From contig JAFDZV010000033.1 of assembly GCA_018266795.1 (NCBI GenBank), positions 124,001 to 188,000 of the forward strand: DNA of 64,000 nucleotides, read 5' to 3'. Of this stretch, positions 45,325-51,406 are shown piece after piece. Each line of letters opens with the position of its first letter. The stretch's first letter is position 1. Origin of the DNA: Bacteroidota bacterium. GTDB taxonomy: Bacteria > Bacteroidota > Ignavibacteria > OLB7. The notes under the pieces were generated by a model. That model had not been told where the DNA came from and did no database searches. It saw only the letters and a list, made by a program, of their open reading frames with translations. A program made the translations under genes and the position numbers.

Positions 45325-46869
45325 CTAGGCCTGCTCCCCCTCCTCGTGCGCAGCGGCATGAGCACGACGTTCGTCCGGGCGCATCATCGGGAAGAAGATG
45401 ACGTCGCGAATGGAGTCCTGGCCCGTGAGAAGCATGGTGAGACGGTCGATGCCAAGCCCCATGCCCGTACATGGAGGCATGCCAACTTCGAGGGCATGGA
45501 GAAAGTCCTCGTCGATCAGCATGGCTTCATCATCGCCCGCCTCGCGAAGCCTGGCCTGCTCCTGAAAGCGGCGGCGTTGATCGCGCGGATCGTTCAGTTC
45601 GCTGAAGGCCGGCGCCATCTCCTGACCTTTGATGATGAGCTCCCATGCCTCAACCAGTCCCGGTTTTGTGCGATGGCGCTTTGCCAGCGGCACCATCTCC
45701 TCTGGATAGTCCATGACGAACGTGGGCTGGATCACGTTGGGCTGAACGCAGGTGCTGAAGAGTTCGTCGATCACCCTGGCCACACCCATGGTGCCGTCCG
45801 TGTGAATGCCTTTTTCGCGAGCCAGGGCGCGCAGCGCGTCCAGATCCATTCCCTCGATGTCGCGGCCGGTGTGCTCGCTGATAAGCTGATGCATCGTGGC
45901 GCGACGATAGGGGGGTGTAAAGTCGATCTCGACACCATCACCCGCTGTCACCACCAACGAGCCGTTCACCGCCTTCACGGTCTCCGCCAGCATCTGCTCC
46001 ACGAGCTCCGCCATCCAGTTGTAGTCGTTGTACGCAACATAGAGCTCGAGCATGGTGAACTCAGGGTTGTGGGTACGGTCCATCCCTTCGTTGCGGAAGT
46101 TCTTGCCAAGCTCGTAGACGCCGTTGAAGCCGCCAACCATCAGACGCTTCAGATTCAGCTCCAATGAGATGCGGAGGAAGAGCGGAATATTGAGGGCGTT
46201 GAGATGGGTTGCGAACGGCCGTGCGGCGGCGCCGCCGTACATGGAGTGAAGCACCGGGGTTTCCACTTCCAGGTAACCGCGCTCGTCCAGGAAGCGGCGG
46301 ATGGTGGAGATGATGCGCGCGCGCTTGCGGAAGGTTTCGCGGATCTCGGGATTGACGGCGAGATCGATGTACCGCTGGCGATAGCGGAGTTCCTTGTCCG
46401 TGAACTGATCGTGAAGTACCTGGTTCCCATCGGCGTCGGTTTCCATCTTCGGCACCGGAAGCGTGGTAAGGCACTTGGTCAGGAGCATCATGAACTTCGC
46501 GTGCAGCGTCACCTCGCCGGTTCGCGTGCGAAACATGAAGCCGGTTACGCCGATGATGTCGCCGATGTCGTACAGGCGAAGGTGTTCGTAGTTTTCGAGG
46601 TCATCCCGCTTGAGATAGATCTGCAGGCGGGAGACGTCGTCCTGAAGATGGATGAAGCTCGCCTTTCCCATTTTGCGGATCGCGACGATGCGTCCTGCGA
46701 TTCCCACGGTCTGCTCTGGTGCGTCGTCCACAAAACCATCCCGGGCTTCGGCCGTGGTGTGGGTGCGGTTGAAGGAATAGGGGTATGCAACCACCCCCTC
46801 GCCCTCGAGATGCTCCAGCTCCTCGAATCGGCGCGCTATCTGATCGTTGTCGAAAACTTGCATTGTCAT
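45325..46869 (-). CDS. lysS: Lysine--tRNA ligase, class II
   Basis: A class II synthetase of 514 residues, normal for LysRS. The N-terminal OB-fold anticodon-binding domain includes VGIAGRIVAIRKMGKASFIHL. The catalytic core has motif 2 in FRNEGMDRTHNPEFTMLE and motif 3 in GMGLGIDRLTMLLT. The C-terminus is extended by a Glu/Ala/His-rich tail (DERRAHAAAHEEGEQA). The start is at 46869 (MTMQVFDND). It is a single gene, convergent with fic. Confidence 0.97.
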   Translation of the reverse strand: MTMQVFDNDQIARRFEELEHLEGEGVVAYPYSFNRTHTTAEARDGFVDDAPEQTVGIAGRIVAIRKMGKASFIHLQDDVSRLQIYLKRDDLENYEHLRLYDIGDIIGVTGFMFRTRTGEVTLHAKFMMLLTKCLTTLPVPKMETDADGNQVLHDQFTDKELRYRQRYIDLAVNPEIRETFRKRARIISTIRRFLDERGYLEVETPVLHSMYGGAAARPFATHLNALNIPLFLRISLELNLKRLMVGGFNGVYELGKNFRNEGMDRTHNPEFTMLELYVAYNDYNWMAELVEQMLAETVKAVNGSLVVTAGDGVEIDFTPPYRRATMHQLISEHTGRDIEGMDLDALRALAREKGIHTDGTMGVARVIDELFSTCVQPNVIQPTFVMDYPEEMVPLAKRHRTKPGLVEAWELIIKGQEMAPAFSELNDPRDQRRRFQEQARLREAGDDEAMLIDEDFLHALEVGMPPCTGMGLGIDRLTMLLTGQDSIRDVIFFPMMRPDERRAHAAAHEEGEQA

Positions 46870-47165: not shown

Positions 47166-48845
47166 GTGAAACACTCTCGTACCCTCTACTTGCTTCTGCT
47201 CCTCGGAGCCGTCCTGTTCTGCGCGCGGCCGCTTCATGCTCAGGGATCGTTCGACGTTCGTGTTGTGCATCTGATGCCCGGCGCTCCCAATGTGGATATC
47301 TACCTGAACAATGTTCCCACCGCGACGATCACGGATCTGGCGTACGAGTATACCTCGCCGCTGGTAACGCGCCTTCCGGTGGACAACGGGACGCTCAATA
47401 TGAAGGCGGGCCCCGCCGGCGGAGGCATCGGCACCGCCATCGTGAGCCAGGATTTTCCCGTCGTCACCTCCACGGAGTATTCCGCCGTGGTCTACCCAAG
47501 CGGCGCCCTGCCGAAGGTGATCATGCTGGCGCGTCCGAAGAGCCAGGTGCCCGGACCCGGCAAGGCGTTGGTGCGCGTGCTCAACATCTCGAGCCTCTCA
47601 TCCGGTGCGATCGACGTCTATCTGGACTCACTCGCCGGCACGCCGATCGCAAGCGGGCTTGCAGGCGAGAACGTTTCGTCGTTTGTCAGTGTGACGGGGG
47701 AGCCGAAGAATCTGTACATCACGCAGGCCGGCTCGACGGCGGCGCTTGCCACGTTCACGGTGCCGCTGACGGTTTCAGGGCGTATGACGCTGATTGTGAC
47801 TGGAGGCGCTCCGAGCCAGTTGAAGGTGTATGCGCTCAGTGGTGAGAATATCGATGGCTACAAGCTGCCGGTTCTGCAGGGACTTCAGGGGGGGATGCAG
47901 TCGTCGTTGCGTGTGGTTCATGCCTGGTACCAGCCGAAGCTTCAGGGGACGGGCGTTCAACCTCTCGATGTGTATGTGGACAACGGTTCGCAGCCTCGAT
48001 TCCCGAATCTTCGCTATCGCACGGCATCGGCGAAGTATGGCCCATTGACGGCGGACAGCGCGGTGGTGCGCTTCGCGCCGATCAATGAGGGGGTGGCAAG
48101 CGCAGTGTTCACAGGGACGGTGCAGTTCCATCGGGACTCCGACTATGTGATGATCCTTACGAAGACGAAGGAGGGAGCCGCGGCCGCGCTCACGCTGGGA
48201 TCACCAACGGGTGTGCCGGGGAACAAGACGGACTCGTTGTTCATACGCGCCGCGTTCGTAACGGATTTCAACAGCGATGTCCTGATCCGGATCCGTCCGG
48301 ACAATGCTCCCCCGATCGAGATTCCACAGCTTGCTTTCCTGACCGCTTCGGACTGGTATATCATCCCTCGCGGGCATTTCGTGGTGGAGGCTTACAAGCC
48401 GAACGAGGGGACTCCGTTCTATCAGAAGGAGAGTGACGGGGACTTCTCGACGACCTATCTGACGGTGATCGTACTTGGAAGTGAGAAGACGTTCGAGCTG
48501 GACATCCTGAACGAGATGCTTCCGGTACAGCAGGTGTTCGATCCGGCGAGCGGCGTGCCGGCAACACCGGATGCCACCGCCTCGAACCTCGGGCTGGCCT
48601 GCACTCCCAATCCCTGCTCCGCGCATGCCGCAATCGGCTTCAATGTTCGGACAGGCGGCAATGTGACGATGACGCTGCACGACGGCCTTGGCCGTACGGT
48701 GGCGACGCTCGTCAACGAAACGATGACGGCGGGGGAGCATACGGTGGATGTGGATGCCGCCAGCCTTCCAACCGGTGTCTACTACTATTCGCTGCACGCA
48801 GCCGACGGACTGCACGGCACCGGGCGTCTGGAAGTTGTTCGATAG
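47166..48845 (+). CDS. Secreted DUF4397 protein with T9SS sorting domain
   Basis: A 559-residue exported protein. The GTG start at 47166 gives a clear signal peptide (RTLYLLLLLGAVLFCARPLHA). The body has two or three DUF4397-type repeats, each beginning like RVVHLMPGAPNVDIYLNN, RVLNISSLSSGAIDVYLD and RVVHAWYQP. DUF4397 domains are beta-sandwich surface modules. The last ~90 residues are a T9SS sorting domain (LACTPNPCSAHAAIGFNV, GLGRTVATLVN, GVYYYSLHAADG). It is likely displayed or released at the cell surface. A terminator hairpin follows at 48868-48918. Confidence 0.9.
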   Translation: MKHSRTLYLLLLLGAVLFCARPLHAQGSFDVRVVHLMPGAPNVDIYLNNVPTATITDLAYEYTSPLVTRLPVDNGTLNMKAGPAGGGIGTAIVSQDFPVVTSTEYSAVVYPSGALPKVIMLARPKSQVPGPGKALVRVLNISSLSSGAIDVYLDSLAGTPIASGLAGENVSSFVSVTGEPKNLYITQAGSTAALATFTVPLTVSGRMTLIVTGGAPSQLKVYALSGENIDGYKLPVLQGLQGGMQSSLRVVHAWYQPKLQGTGVQPLDVYVDNGSQPRFPNLRYRTASAKYGPLTADSAVVRFAPINEGVASAVFTGTVQFHRDSDYVMILTKTKEGAAAALTLGSPTGVPGNKTDSLFIRAAFVTDFNSDVLIRIRPDNAPPIEIPQLAFLTASDWYIIPRGHFVVEAYKPNEGTPFYQKESDGDFSTTYLTVIVLGSEKTFELDILNEMLPVQQVFDPASGVPATPDATASNLGLACTPNPCSAHAAIGFNVRTGGNVTMTLHDGLGRTVATLVNETMTAGEHTVDVDAASLPTGVYYYSLHAADGLHGTGRLEVVR

Positions 48846-49005: not shown

Positions 49006-49746
49006 ATGAAGAAGCAATTGAAGGCGAAGCAGACGGCCTGGCTTCGCGAGATACGAGACGCGCTCCAGATGCTCGTGGATCCGGTGTATCGCGAAGGGAT
49101 TGGACGTATCGTACCAACAACGAGCAACATACTGGGGGTTCGCGTTCCGGCGATTCGCGAGCTGGTGAAGGAGTTCGCAGCCCGGCACGACGATCTGGAT
49201 CTCGACGCGGCGTGCGAGTTGATGGATGCCGCAGCCGCGCAGAGAGGGCGTGAGGAGATTCTGTTCGCCACGTTCCTGCTTGCGCGCTTCCGTCGCCGGT
49301 TCGTGAAGGAGGATGCGCTTCGTGAAATGTGGCGGCGCATCGATGCCTGGGTCGAGTCGGTGGACAACTGGGAGACGTGCGATCAGTTGGCTACGAATAT
49401 CGCCGCACCGGTTGTTGCCGCGCAGATCGATCTGGTAGGGGAACTGGTTGCATGGGCCGGCTCCGGGAATGCCTGGCGCCGGCGTTTCGCGGTGGTGACT
49501 ACGGCGGGGCTGAATCAGAAGGGAAGGCGCTTTCCCGCAGAGACGCTGCGTGTGTGCGAGGCGTTGATGAACGATCCGGACTCGATGGTGCAGAAGGCTG
49601 TTGGTTGGGCGATTCGCGAGGCGACGCAGGCGGATGAGGGGCTTGCCGCTCAGTTCCTGTTGCGGTGGAAGGGGAGGGCGGTGCCGAGGATCATGCGTGA
49701 GGGGAGCGAGAAGCTCTCCGACAAGAATCGCGTGTTGCTGAAGTAG
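49006..49746 (+). CDS. AlkD-like DNA alkylation repair protein
   Basis: A 246-residue all-helical protein of the AlkD/HEAT-like DNA glycosylase family, which excises alkylated bases such as 3- and 7-methylpurines without base flipping. Recognisable parts are the N-terminal VRVPAIRELVKEF, VDNWETCDQLATN in the middle, NAWRRRFAVVTTAGL, and QKAVGWAIREAT near the end. The length is normal. It is a single gene ended by a strong hairpin at 49842-49890. Confidence 0.9.
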   Translation: MKKQLKAKQTAWLREIRDALQMLVDPVYREGIGRIVPTTSNILGVRVPAIRELVKEFAARHDDLDLDAACELMDAAAAQRGREEILFATFLLARFRRRFVKEDALREMWRRIDAWVESVDNWETCDQLATNIAAPVVAAQIDLVGELVAWAGSGNAWRRRFAVVTTAGLNQKGRRFPAETLRVCEALMNDPDSMVQKAVGWAIREATQADEGLAAQFLLRWKGRAVPRIMREGSEKLSDKNRVLLK

Positions 49747-49841: not shown

Positions 49842-49890
49842 CGAAACGAGTGCGGGGACGATTCATGGAATCGTCCCCGCACTCGTTTCG
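49842..49890. terminator. 23-bp perfect hairpin, alkD/sucC
   Basis: CGAAACGAGTGCGGGGACGA-TTC pairs exactly with its complement over 23 bp around an ATG triloop. It sits between the convergent alkD-like and sucC genes and should terminate both. Confidence 0.9.
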
Positions 49891-49903: not shown

Positions 49904-51406
49904 CTAGAAGTCGTCATCATCGTCATTCAGCACATCCTCGATGTCGTCATCGAGATCTTCCTCGTCGAACTCGGAGATGTCCATCGAGTCCGGATCCTCG
50001 ACGGCGTCGAAGTCGAACTCTTCCTCCTCCTCTTCTTCGCCTTCCTCCTCTCCCTCCAGCGTTTCGTCGTCATCATCGTCGTCTTCGTCGCGCGGCGGGA
50101 TCGCCATTGAGGCGAATGCCATCGAGGCGTTGATAACGGCAGCGCCGCCATCTTCATCGGCTGTGATTCCGCTGAGGGCCTCGGTCACCTTCTCGGCGGC
50201 CTCGGCAAGCGTGGCTGCAACGGAGAAGTGGAGCGGGGAGCTGAGCAGGATCTGACGGGCCTCTTCGGCGTTGGTACCGTCGAGGCGGACGATCACGGGT
50301 ACATGTACTTCAACTGTTTGCATGGCCTGAATGATGCCGTTAGCTACACGATCACAGCGGACGATGCCGCCGAAGATATTGATCAATACCGCTTTGACAT
50401 TGGGGTCGCTCATCATAACCTTGAACGCCGCAGCCACGCGCTCAACGCTGGCGCCGCCGCCCACATCGAGGAAGTTGGCAGGCTCGCCGCCGGCAAGCTT
50501 GATGATATCCATCGTCGCCATGGCCAGTCCGGCGCCGTTGACCATGCAGCCAACGTTGCCATCCAGCTTGATGTAGTTGAGATTGTTCTTGCCTGCCTCC
50601 ACTTCCAGCGGATCCTCCTCCGATTCATCGCGCATTGCGGCGATGTCCGCATGGCGGTAGAGCGCGTTGTCGTCGATGGAGACCTTTGCATCAACGGCAA
50701 TGATGTCGCCATCGGTTGTAAGCGCAAGCGGGTTCACCTCGATGAGCGCTGCGTCGATGGCAATATATGCCTTGTAGAGCGCATTGATGAAGGTGATGAA
50801 GCTCTTGTGGGCCTTGCCGCTGAGGCCCAGGCCGAAGGCGAGGCGGCGCGCCTGGAAGCCCTCGAGGCCAAGGCCGGGCTCCACATATTCGCGCACGATC
50901 TTCTCCGGCATCTCCTCCGCCACCTTCTCGATCTCTACGCCCCCCTCGGTGGAGGCCATGATGATGTTCTTGCCGCTTGCGCGATCGAGCAGAATGGAGC
51001 AATAGAACTCCTTCTCGATGTCGACGCCGTTGGCGATGAGGAGGCGGTTGACCACCTTCCCCTCGGCGCCGGTCTGAATCGTGACCAGGCGATTGCCGAG
51101 CATGCGGATGGCGATCTCGTATACTTCGTGCAGCGGGTTGCTCTCATCGGTGGGGACAACCTTCACACCGCGCAGTTCCTTGTCGTTGTAGACAACAGGC
51201 TCGCCACCGATGATGTCGTGAATGATTCCCTTGCCGCGCCCACCTGCATGGATCTGCGACTTGACGATCAGGAGAGTTGCTCCCTCGTCGATCATGTGAT
51301 GCGCGGCTTCAACGGCCTGCTCCGGCGTGAACGCAACACGCCCGGATTGCACCGGCACACCGTAACTGCCGAGCAGTTCCTTGGCTTGATGCTCGTGGAT
51401 GTTCAT
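49904..51406 (-). CDS. sucC: Succinyl-CoA ligase beta subunit with acidic tail
   Basis: The beta subunit of succinyl-CoA synthetase in the TCA cycle, which with SucD interconverts succinyl-CoA and succinate with nucleotide phosphorylation. Residues 1 to ~410 form a complete subunit: N-terminal [15 protein letters not shown]-grasp segment [27 protein letters not shown] and the usual end region. About 90 more residues follow, and in the last 61 residues 41 are Asp or Glu, so the protein is 500 residues instead of about 390. sucD is not adjacent. A -7 element lies 196 bases upstream (51602-51609). Confidence 0.94.

Follow-up and report, generated by a model that had tools for sequence, protein, structure and literature searches.

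The closest described counterpart of the enzyme discussed here is the bacterial ADP-forming succinyl-CoA synthetase (SCS) SucCD, and both subunits match its solved structures (PDB 6mgg and 1jkj) over their catalytic parts. Among the non-mitochondrial full-length SCS chains listed, which are crystallised constructs, the beta subunit has 385-397 aa and the alpha subunit 286-297 aa. These solved chains are too short to hold the long tails of both subunits here, which are charged and have low predicted order. A second comparison is with the single-chain relatives, ATP-citrate lyase and the ADP-forming acyl-CoA ligases, which have homologous domains. Some of these relatives hold the alpha-like and beta-like parts in one chain. 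The link in the single-chain relatives is covalent, whereas the one considered below for SucC and SucD would, if real, be electrostatic. For the tails themselves the likeness is to prothymosin alpha and linker histone H1.0, which form a complex of very high affinity in which each remains disordered (PMC7661507). There, as here, a disordered polyacid faces a positively charged disordered protein. The difference is that the present case involves tails on two subunits already joined through folded domains, and the binding between these tails is putative. Charged SucC or SucD tails are undescribed in the titles and abstract openings of the open-access papers among the matches listed, and no enzyme of this kind appears in the titles and abstract openings listed for the general literature on acidic tails.

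The sucC gene lies at 49904-51406 on the minus strand of the window, which is the whole 64,000-nucleotide stretch of DNA that was analysed. Its start codon is at 51406, its stop codon is at 49904-49906 and its translation has 500 aa. The product is a complete SCS beta subunit up to about residue 413. Two Pfam domains, ATP-grasp_2 (residues 2-228) and Ligase_CoA (288-407), both reach the ends of their profiles. NCBIfam sucCoAbeta covers residues 1-410 with 470.5 bits (cut-off 375.55) and PRK00696 (NF001913) covers residues 1-411 with 533.7 bits (cut-off 370). A profile search found this SucC as the sole ATP-grasp_2 match in the genome, and judged by its core it is an ordinary member of its enzyme family. 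The original prediction placed the end of the complete subunit at about residue 410 and gave the extra length as about 90 residues. The extension past residue 413 has 87, a 26-residue linker followed by a 61-residue tail (Table 1).

Table 1. Features of the sucC gene, its product and the region 3' of it (window coordinates).
Feature	Coordinates	Strand	Evidence
SucC catalytic core, residues 1-413 (ATP-grasp and CoA-ligase)	50168..51406	-	Pfam, NCBIfam, 6mgg_B/1jkj_B; mostly well ordered in AlphaFold2
SucC linker, residues 414-439, Ala/Met stretch common to the host family in altered form	50090..50167	-	Five-species alignment
SucC polyacidic tail, residues 440-500, D/E 41/61	49907..50089	-	Composition, pLDDT <50, shuffle tests
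Most alike-looking tail end, residues 470-500	49907..49999	-	By eye in the alignment, 4/5 species
Perfect 23-bp hairpin, terminator-like, without T-run	49842..49890	-	RNA fold

The composition of the tail is extreme. A recount gave the same 41 Asp or Glu among the last 61 residues as had been reported, and six D in a row and seven E in a row are likewise present. At a base rate of 10% the binomial probability of such a count is 7e-27. The Asp and Glu codons of the window tail are mixed (GAC/GAT/GAG/GAA = 15/8/11/7), all four are used in the tail in each of the five family genomes, and the tail contains only two tandem repeats, short and weak (scores 38 and 33). Therefore, simple codon-repeat expansion does not explain the tail, and as its origin it is a weak candidate at most. 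The tail on its own has a best Pfam match with an E-value of 0.12 and no match in NCBIfam. Predicted disorder, which the original prediction singled out for checking, is what the AlphaFold2 confidence suggests: the core is mostly well ordered, a helix is predicted to residue 431 and confidence is below 50 for residues 420-500. The AlphaFold2 alignments consisted of 36 and 25 hand-picked sequences.

Perhaps an acidic C-terminus is simply a habit of this proteome? A sample of 267 open reading frames, called greedily without a gene finder from the window and 15 genome stretches (the stretch holding SucD among them on purpose), argues otherwise. SucC has the highest share of Asp and Glu in the last 60 residues, 67%, against a mean of 10%. 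The next most acidic C-terminus has only 23%, and so a proteome-wide habit is unsupported. Besides SucC, the five family genomes contain eight runs of at least eight acidic codons, each at least 51 codons before the end of its frame; one of these frames exits its locus and one is short and doubtful. SucC itself has no run of eight acidic codons in G002, G003 or G004. The tail profile finds no match among other proteins of the family genomes at E-values up to 10. A separate observation is that three of the genomes (L189 in G004, L190 in G003 and L194 in G000) encode a protein of ~630-660 aa with long internal acidic linkers; these separate an N-terminal part from a C-terminal piece that contains FTDSVYGRYL, and both of these parts are similar among the three.

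The acidic tail is present in all five genomes of the host family that were analysed (G000-G004), which represent three genera. Their SucC proteins have 29 to 43 acidic residues among the last 60, and core identities to the window SucC of 77-83%. Because the tail occurs in five separate genomes, a frameshift or assembly error can be rejected, and the earlier view that the extension is real and no frameshift artefact holds. None of the five family genomes has its stop before the tail, the case that the original prediction gave as its refutation; genomes of sister families are tailless. Outside the family the picture is different. When the five-tail profile was searched against 391 sampled genomes of the host class (E <=0.001) there were five matches, all in the host family. 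SucC C-termini were read for 25 genomes that belong to the class but not to the family (a count that leaves out 11 further searched genomes, one of them without a SucC match) and for 80 named-record loci, and none has more than 12 acidic residues among its final 60. Seventeen further SucC proteins with frames of at least 438 aa, taken from among the phylum matches listed, have between 4 and 10 acidic residues among their final 40. These 17 end 70-78 residues after NIFGG, and their extra length lies upstream.

A tree of 57 SucC cores places the host family in one clade (support 100/100). Its sister clade consists of four rows from three families, all tailless (support 100/99). The simplest history for this distribution would be a single gain of the tail on the stem of the host family; a loss in the sister clade would be the less simple alternative. 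The family has probably acquired the tail a single time and retained it since.

Is the tail maintained by selection? Codon comparison of the closest pair, G003/G004, gives dN/dS values of 0.04 for the core, 0.17 for the whole extension and 0.12 for its acidic part, and on this basis the tail seems to be under purifying selection. For G000/G001 the values are 0.095 (core) and 0.145 (extension), with synonymous sites near saturation. For the other family pairs the dS of the core either exceeds 1.3 or is saturated; extension dN/dS, where estimable, is 0.21 to 0.30. Shuffle tests address the sequence of the tail as distinct from its composition. In all six pairings of G000, G001, G003 and G004 the acidic parts outscore every one of 1000 shuffles, and the pattern EDPxxM....FDEEELDDD is common to the ends of these four tails in the alignment. 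The tail of G002 behaves differently. Its scores against the other four are reached by 403, 32, 418 and 422 of 1000 shuffles; it keeps the charge and composition without clear sequence likeness. The last residue of SucC is Phe in four family species and Ile in the fifth.

The partner subunit supplies the next clue. There is one SucD match in the genome, on a different contig from sucC (G000:C5, L214:15983-17005), and it contains GRRMGHAGAIISGG, with the active-site stretch GHAGA. From the distances to the contig ends, sucC and sucD are at least about 86 kb apart in the source genome. In three class genomes that consist of one contig (G037, G028 and G033) the two genes are 0.9-1.7 Mb apart along it. 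The C-terminus of SucD is rich in Lys, Ala and Pro in all five family species, and the net charge of this tail lies between +9 and +15. The corresponding SucC tails have net charges of -32 to -51, which leaves an excess of 17 to 36 units on the beta side. SucD residues 299-341 have an AlphaFold2 pLDDT below 50 nearly throughout. By eye, the composition of the SucD tails resembles histone H1. In shuffle tests the likeness of the SucD tails is reached by 0/1000 for G003/G004, by 1/1000 for G001/G002 and by 38 to 672 for the other pairs; these tails are alike mostly in composition and less in sequence.

The basic tail of SucD has a wider distribution than the acidic tail of SucC. Counted as present where SucD has 20 or more extra residues that together carry a net charge of +5 or higher, it occurs in 29 of 33 class genomes and in none of 18 genomes from elsewhere. 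The counts cover the 51 genomes for which the searches returned SucD loci, out of a larger number searched; the 18 from other classes are best-scoring loci and represent only five families, one of which supplies 11. Within the class the exceptions are G081, with four residues, and three of the four f2-family genomes read, whose tails have 13 to 16. Basic SucD tails also occur in sister families whose SucC has no tail (G037, G019 and G009), which means that the SucD tail needs no partner tail. Seemingly, the basic tail of SucD arose at about class level, before the acidic tail of SucC.

Some other basic C-termini were encountered. In the sample of 267 frames, that of SucD is the second most Lys-rich. 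The first belongs to a small frame (L220:6174-6698, G000:C6) with a long C-terminal AAKKAPAKK repeat and a composition like that of histone H1. The E1 component of 2-oxoglutarate dehydrogenase was considered as a basic partner and set aside: its frame has no Lys-rich C-terminus in the four family genomes read, out of five. As an observation in its own right, the E1 frame (L265 in G000:C18, and L262-L264) runs to ~1250-1300 aa and has an N-terminal linker rich in Pro and Ala, which suggests a fused type.

What might an acidic tail on one subunit and a basic tail on the other do? The reading we favour, tentatively and as something possible rather than probable, is that the disordered polyacidic tail of SucC contacts the disordered Lys-rich tail of SucD in a fuzzy polyelectrolyte clasp with a putative role in assembly. 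Such a clasp would raise the effective affinity between alpha and beta subunits that are the products of distant genes. It might also, or instead, neutralise a sticky basic SucD tail. The two tails share with a clasp of the prothymosin alpha/H1 type their opposite charge and their disorder, the latter predicted from pLDDT below 50 only. With ~70 and ~43 disordered residues, the tails could span many nanometres by chain length, which makes it unlikely that geometry would keep them from meeting inside a single heterodimer. The original prediction suggested, among other roles, that the tail may tether partner enzymes. This comes closest to the evidence because SucD, the partner subunit, has an oppositely charged tail, a feature that the original prediction could not draw on. 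Some observations speak against the clasp. The basic tail is unpaired through much of the class, the charges are unequal and four of the acidic tails are alike in sequence, and it is for these reasons that the clasp is proposed with no more confidence than this. A variant is that alpha and beta tails also pair between molecules, so that this Krebs-cycle enzyme would form a salt-sensitive, self-coacervating condensate in which the excess acid recruits basic clients. We consider this improbable.

The sequence likeness of the four tails goes beyond composition, and this suggests a specific partner beyond charge. Perhaps, then, the end EDPxxM....FDEEELDDD is a recruitment peptide that docks another protein, such as a dehydrogenase, a kinase or a regulator, with the acidic stretch serving as a spacer. 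The shuffle scores and the C-terminal Phe (Ile in the fifth species) are consistent with this. However, G002 retains only the composition, and the few candidates examined included no partner with a matching feature, so that docking of this kind seems rather unlikely. An excess of negative charge on the SucC tails, SucD tails that look H1-like and the occurrence of basic SucD tails in sister families without an acidic tail would all be expected if the acidic tail were a shield that covers a sticky SucD tail and blocks its binding to DNA, RNA or polyphosphate, with no role in assembly. Against this, nucleic-acid binding by the SucD tail is itself putative, and a basic SucD tail occurs in 24 genomes from elsewhere in the class, and the tail profile, run on the class sample, matched the host family alone. 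An effect of shielding alone is therefore unlikely in our estimate.

The remaining explanations are less likely. The extension could be a disordered appendage that the enzyme tolerates and whose effect goes no further than general solubility, as its higher dN/dS (~4x that of the core in G003/G004 and 1.5x in G000/G001) and the divergent tail of G002 might suggest. Nevertheless, dN/dS is well below 1 wherever it is estimable, and the tail is kept in five of five genomes though core identities to the window are just 77-83%, which makes mere tolerance improbable. SCS uses Mg-nucleotide, and 41 carboxylates within 61 residues might bind or buffer Mg2+ or Ca2+ with low affinity and so regulate the Mg-ADP-dependent enzyme. 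Simple buffering would leave the resemblance in sequence among four tails unexplained, and regular expressions found no EF-hand loop or GGxGxD (RTX) repeat in any of the five. The specific Ca2+ binding once suggested for the tail is left unsupported by this, and regulation through low-affinity metal binding or buffering is very improbable. Finally, the C-terminal peptide of the single-stranded DNA-binding protein SSB has acidic residues and then x-Pro-Phe as its very end, and four of the five SucC tails end in Phe near acidic residues, as if in mimicry of it. The Pro-Phe tip is missing from all five, whereas G002 and G003 each have an SSB with the end DDLPF. These are two of the nine family SSB matches; five end otherwise and one is cut by a contig end, a count of ends that leaves out the SSB of G000 (L253). 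Mimicry of the SSB peptide can hardly be credited.

The region 3' of sucC contains a hairpin (Table 1) that begins 13 bases beyond the stop codon and is also 3' of a converging open reading frame (49006-49746). The 91-nt stretch folded around it has a minimum free energy of -51 kcal/mol (z -7.2). A clean terminator had been claimed to follow the stop. The hairpin is indeed perfect, but a scan downstream of sucC for a hairpin with a T-run found none, and so that description is partly right. Of the open reading frames that were compared to those of the window, none next to sucC is common to all five family genomes. By eye, 45325-46869 encodes a lysyl-tRNA synthetase, which is near sucC in G000, G001 and G002. 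The 559-aa frame at 47166-48845 on the plus strand has a C-terminal region that resembles, again by eye, a sorting domain of type IX secretion.

An enzyme of wide occurrence, with no such tails in its solved relatives, has here gained oppositely charged and apparently disordered ones. This seemingly happened on two subunits in two steps, with the basic tail of alpha appearing at about class level and the acidic tail of beta following on the stem of the family. If the proposed clasp is true, this family would be a natural experiment on the evolution of disordered electrostatic pairing atop a folded interface.
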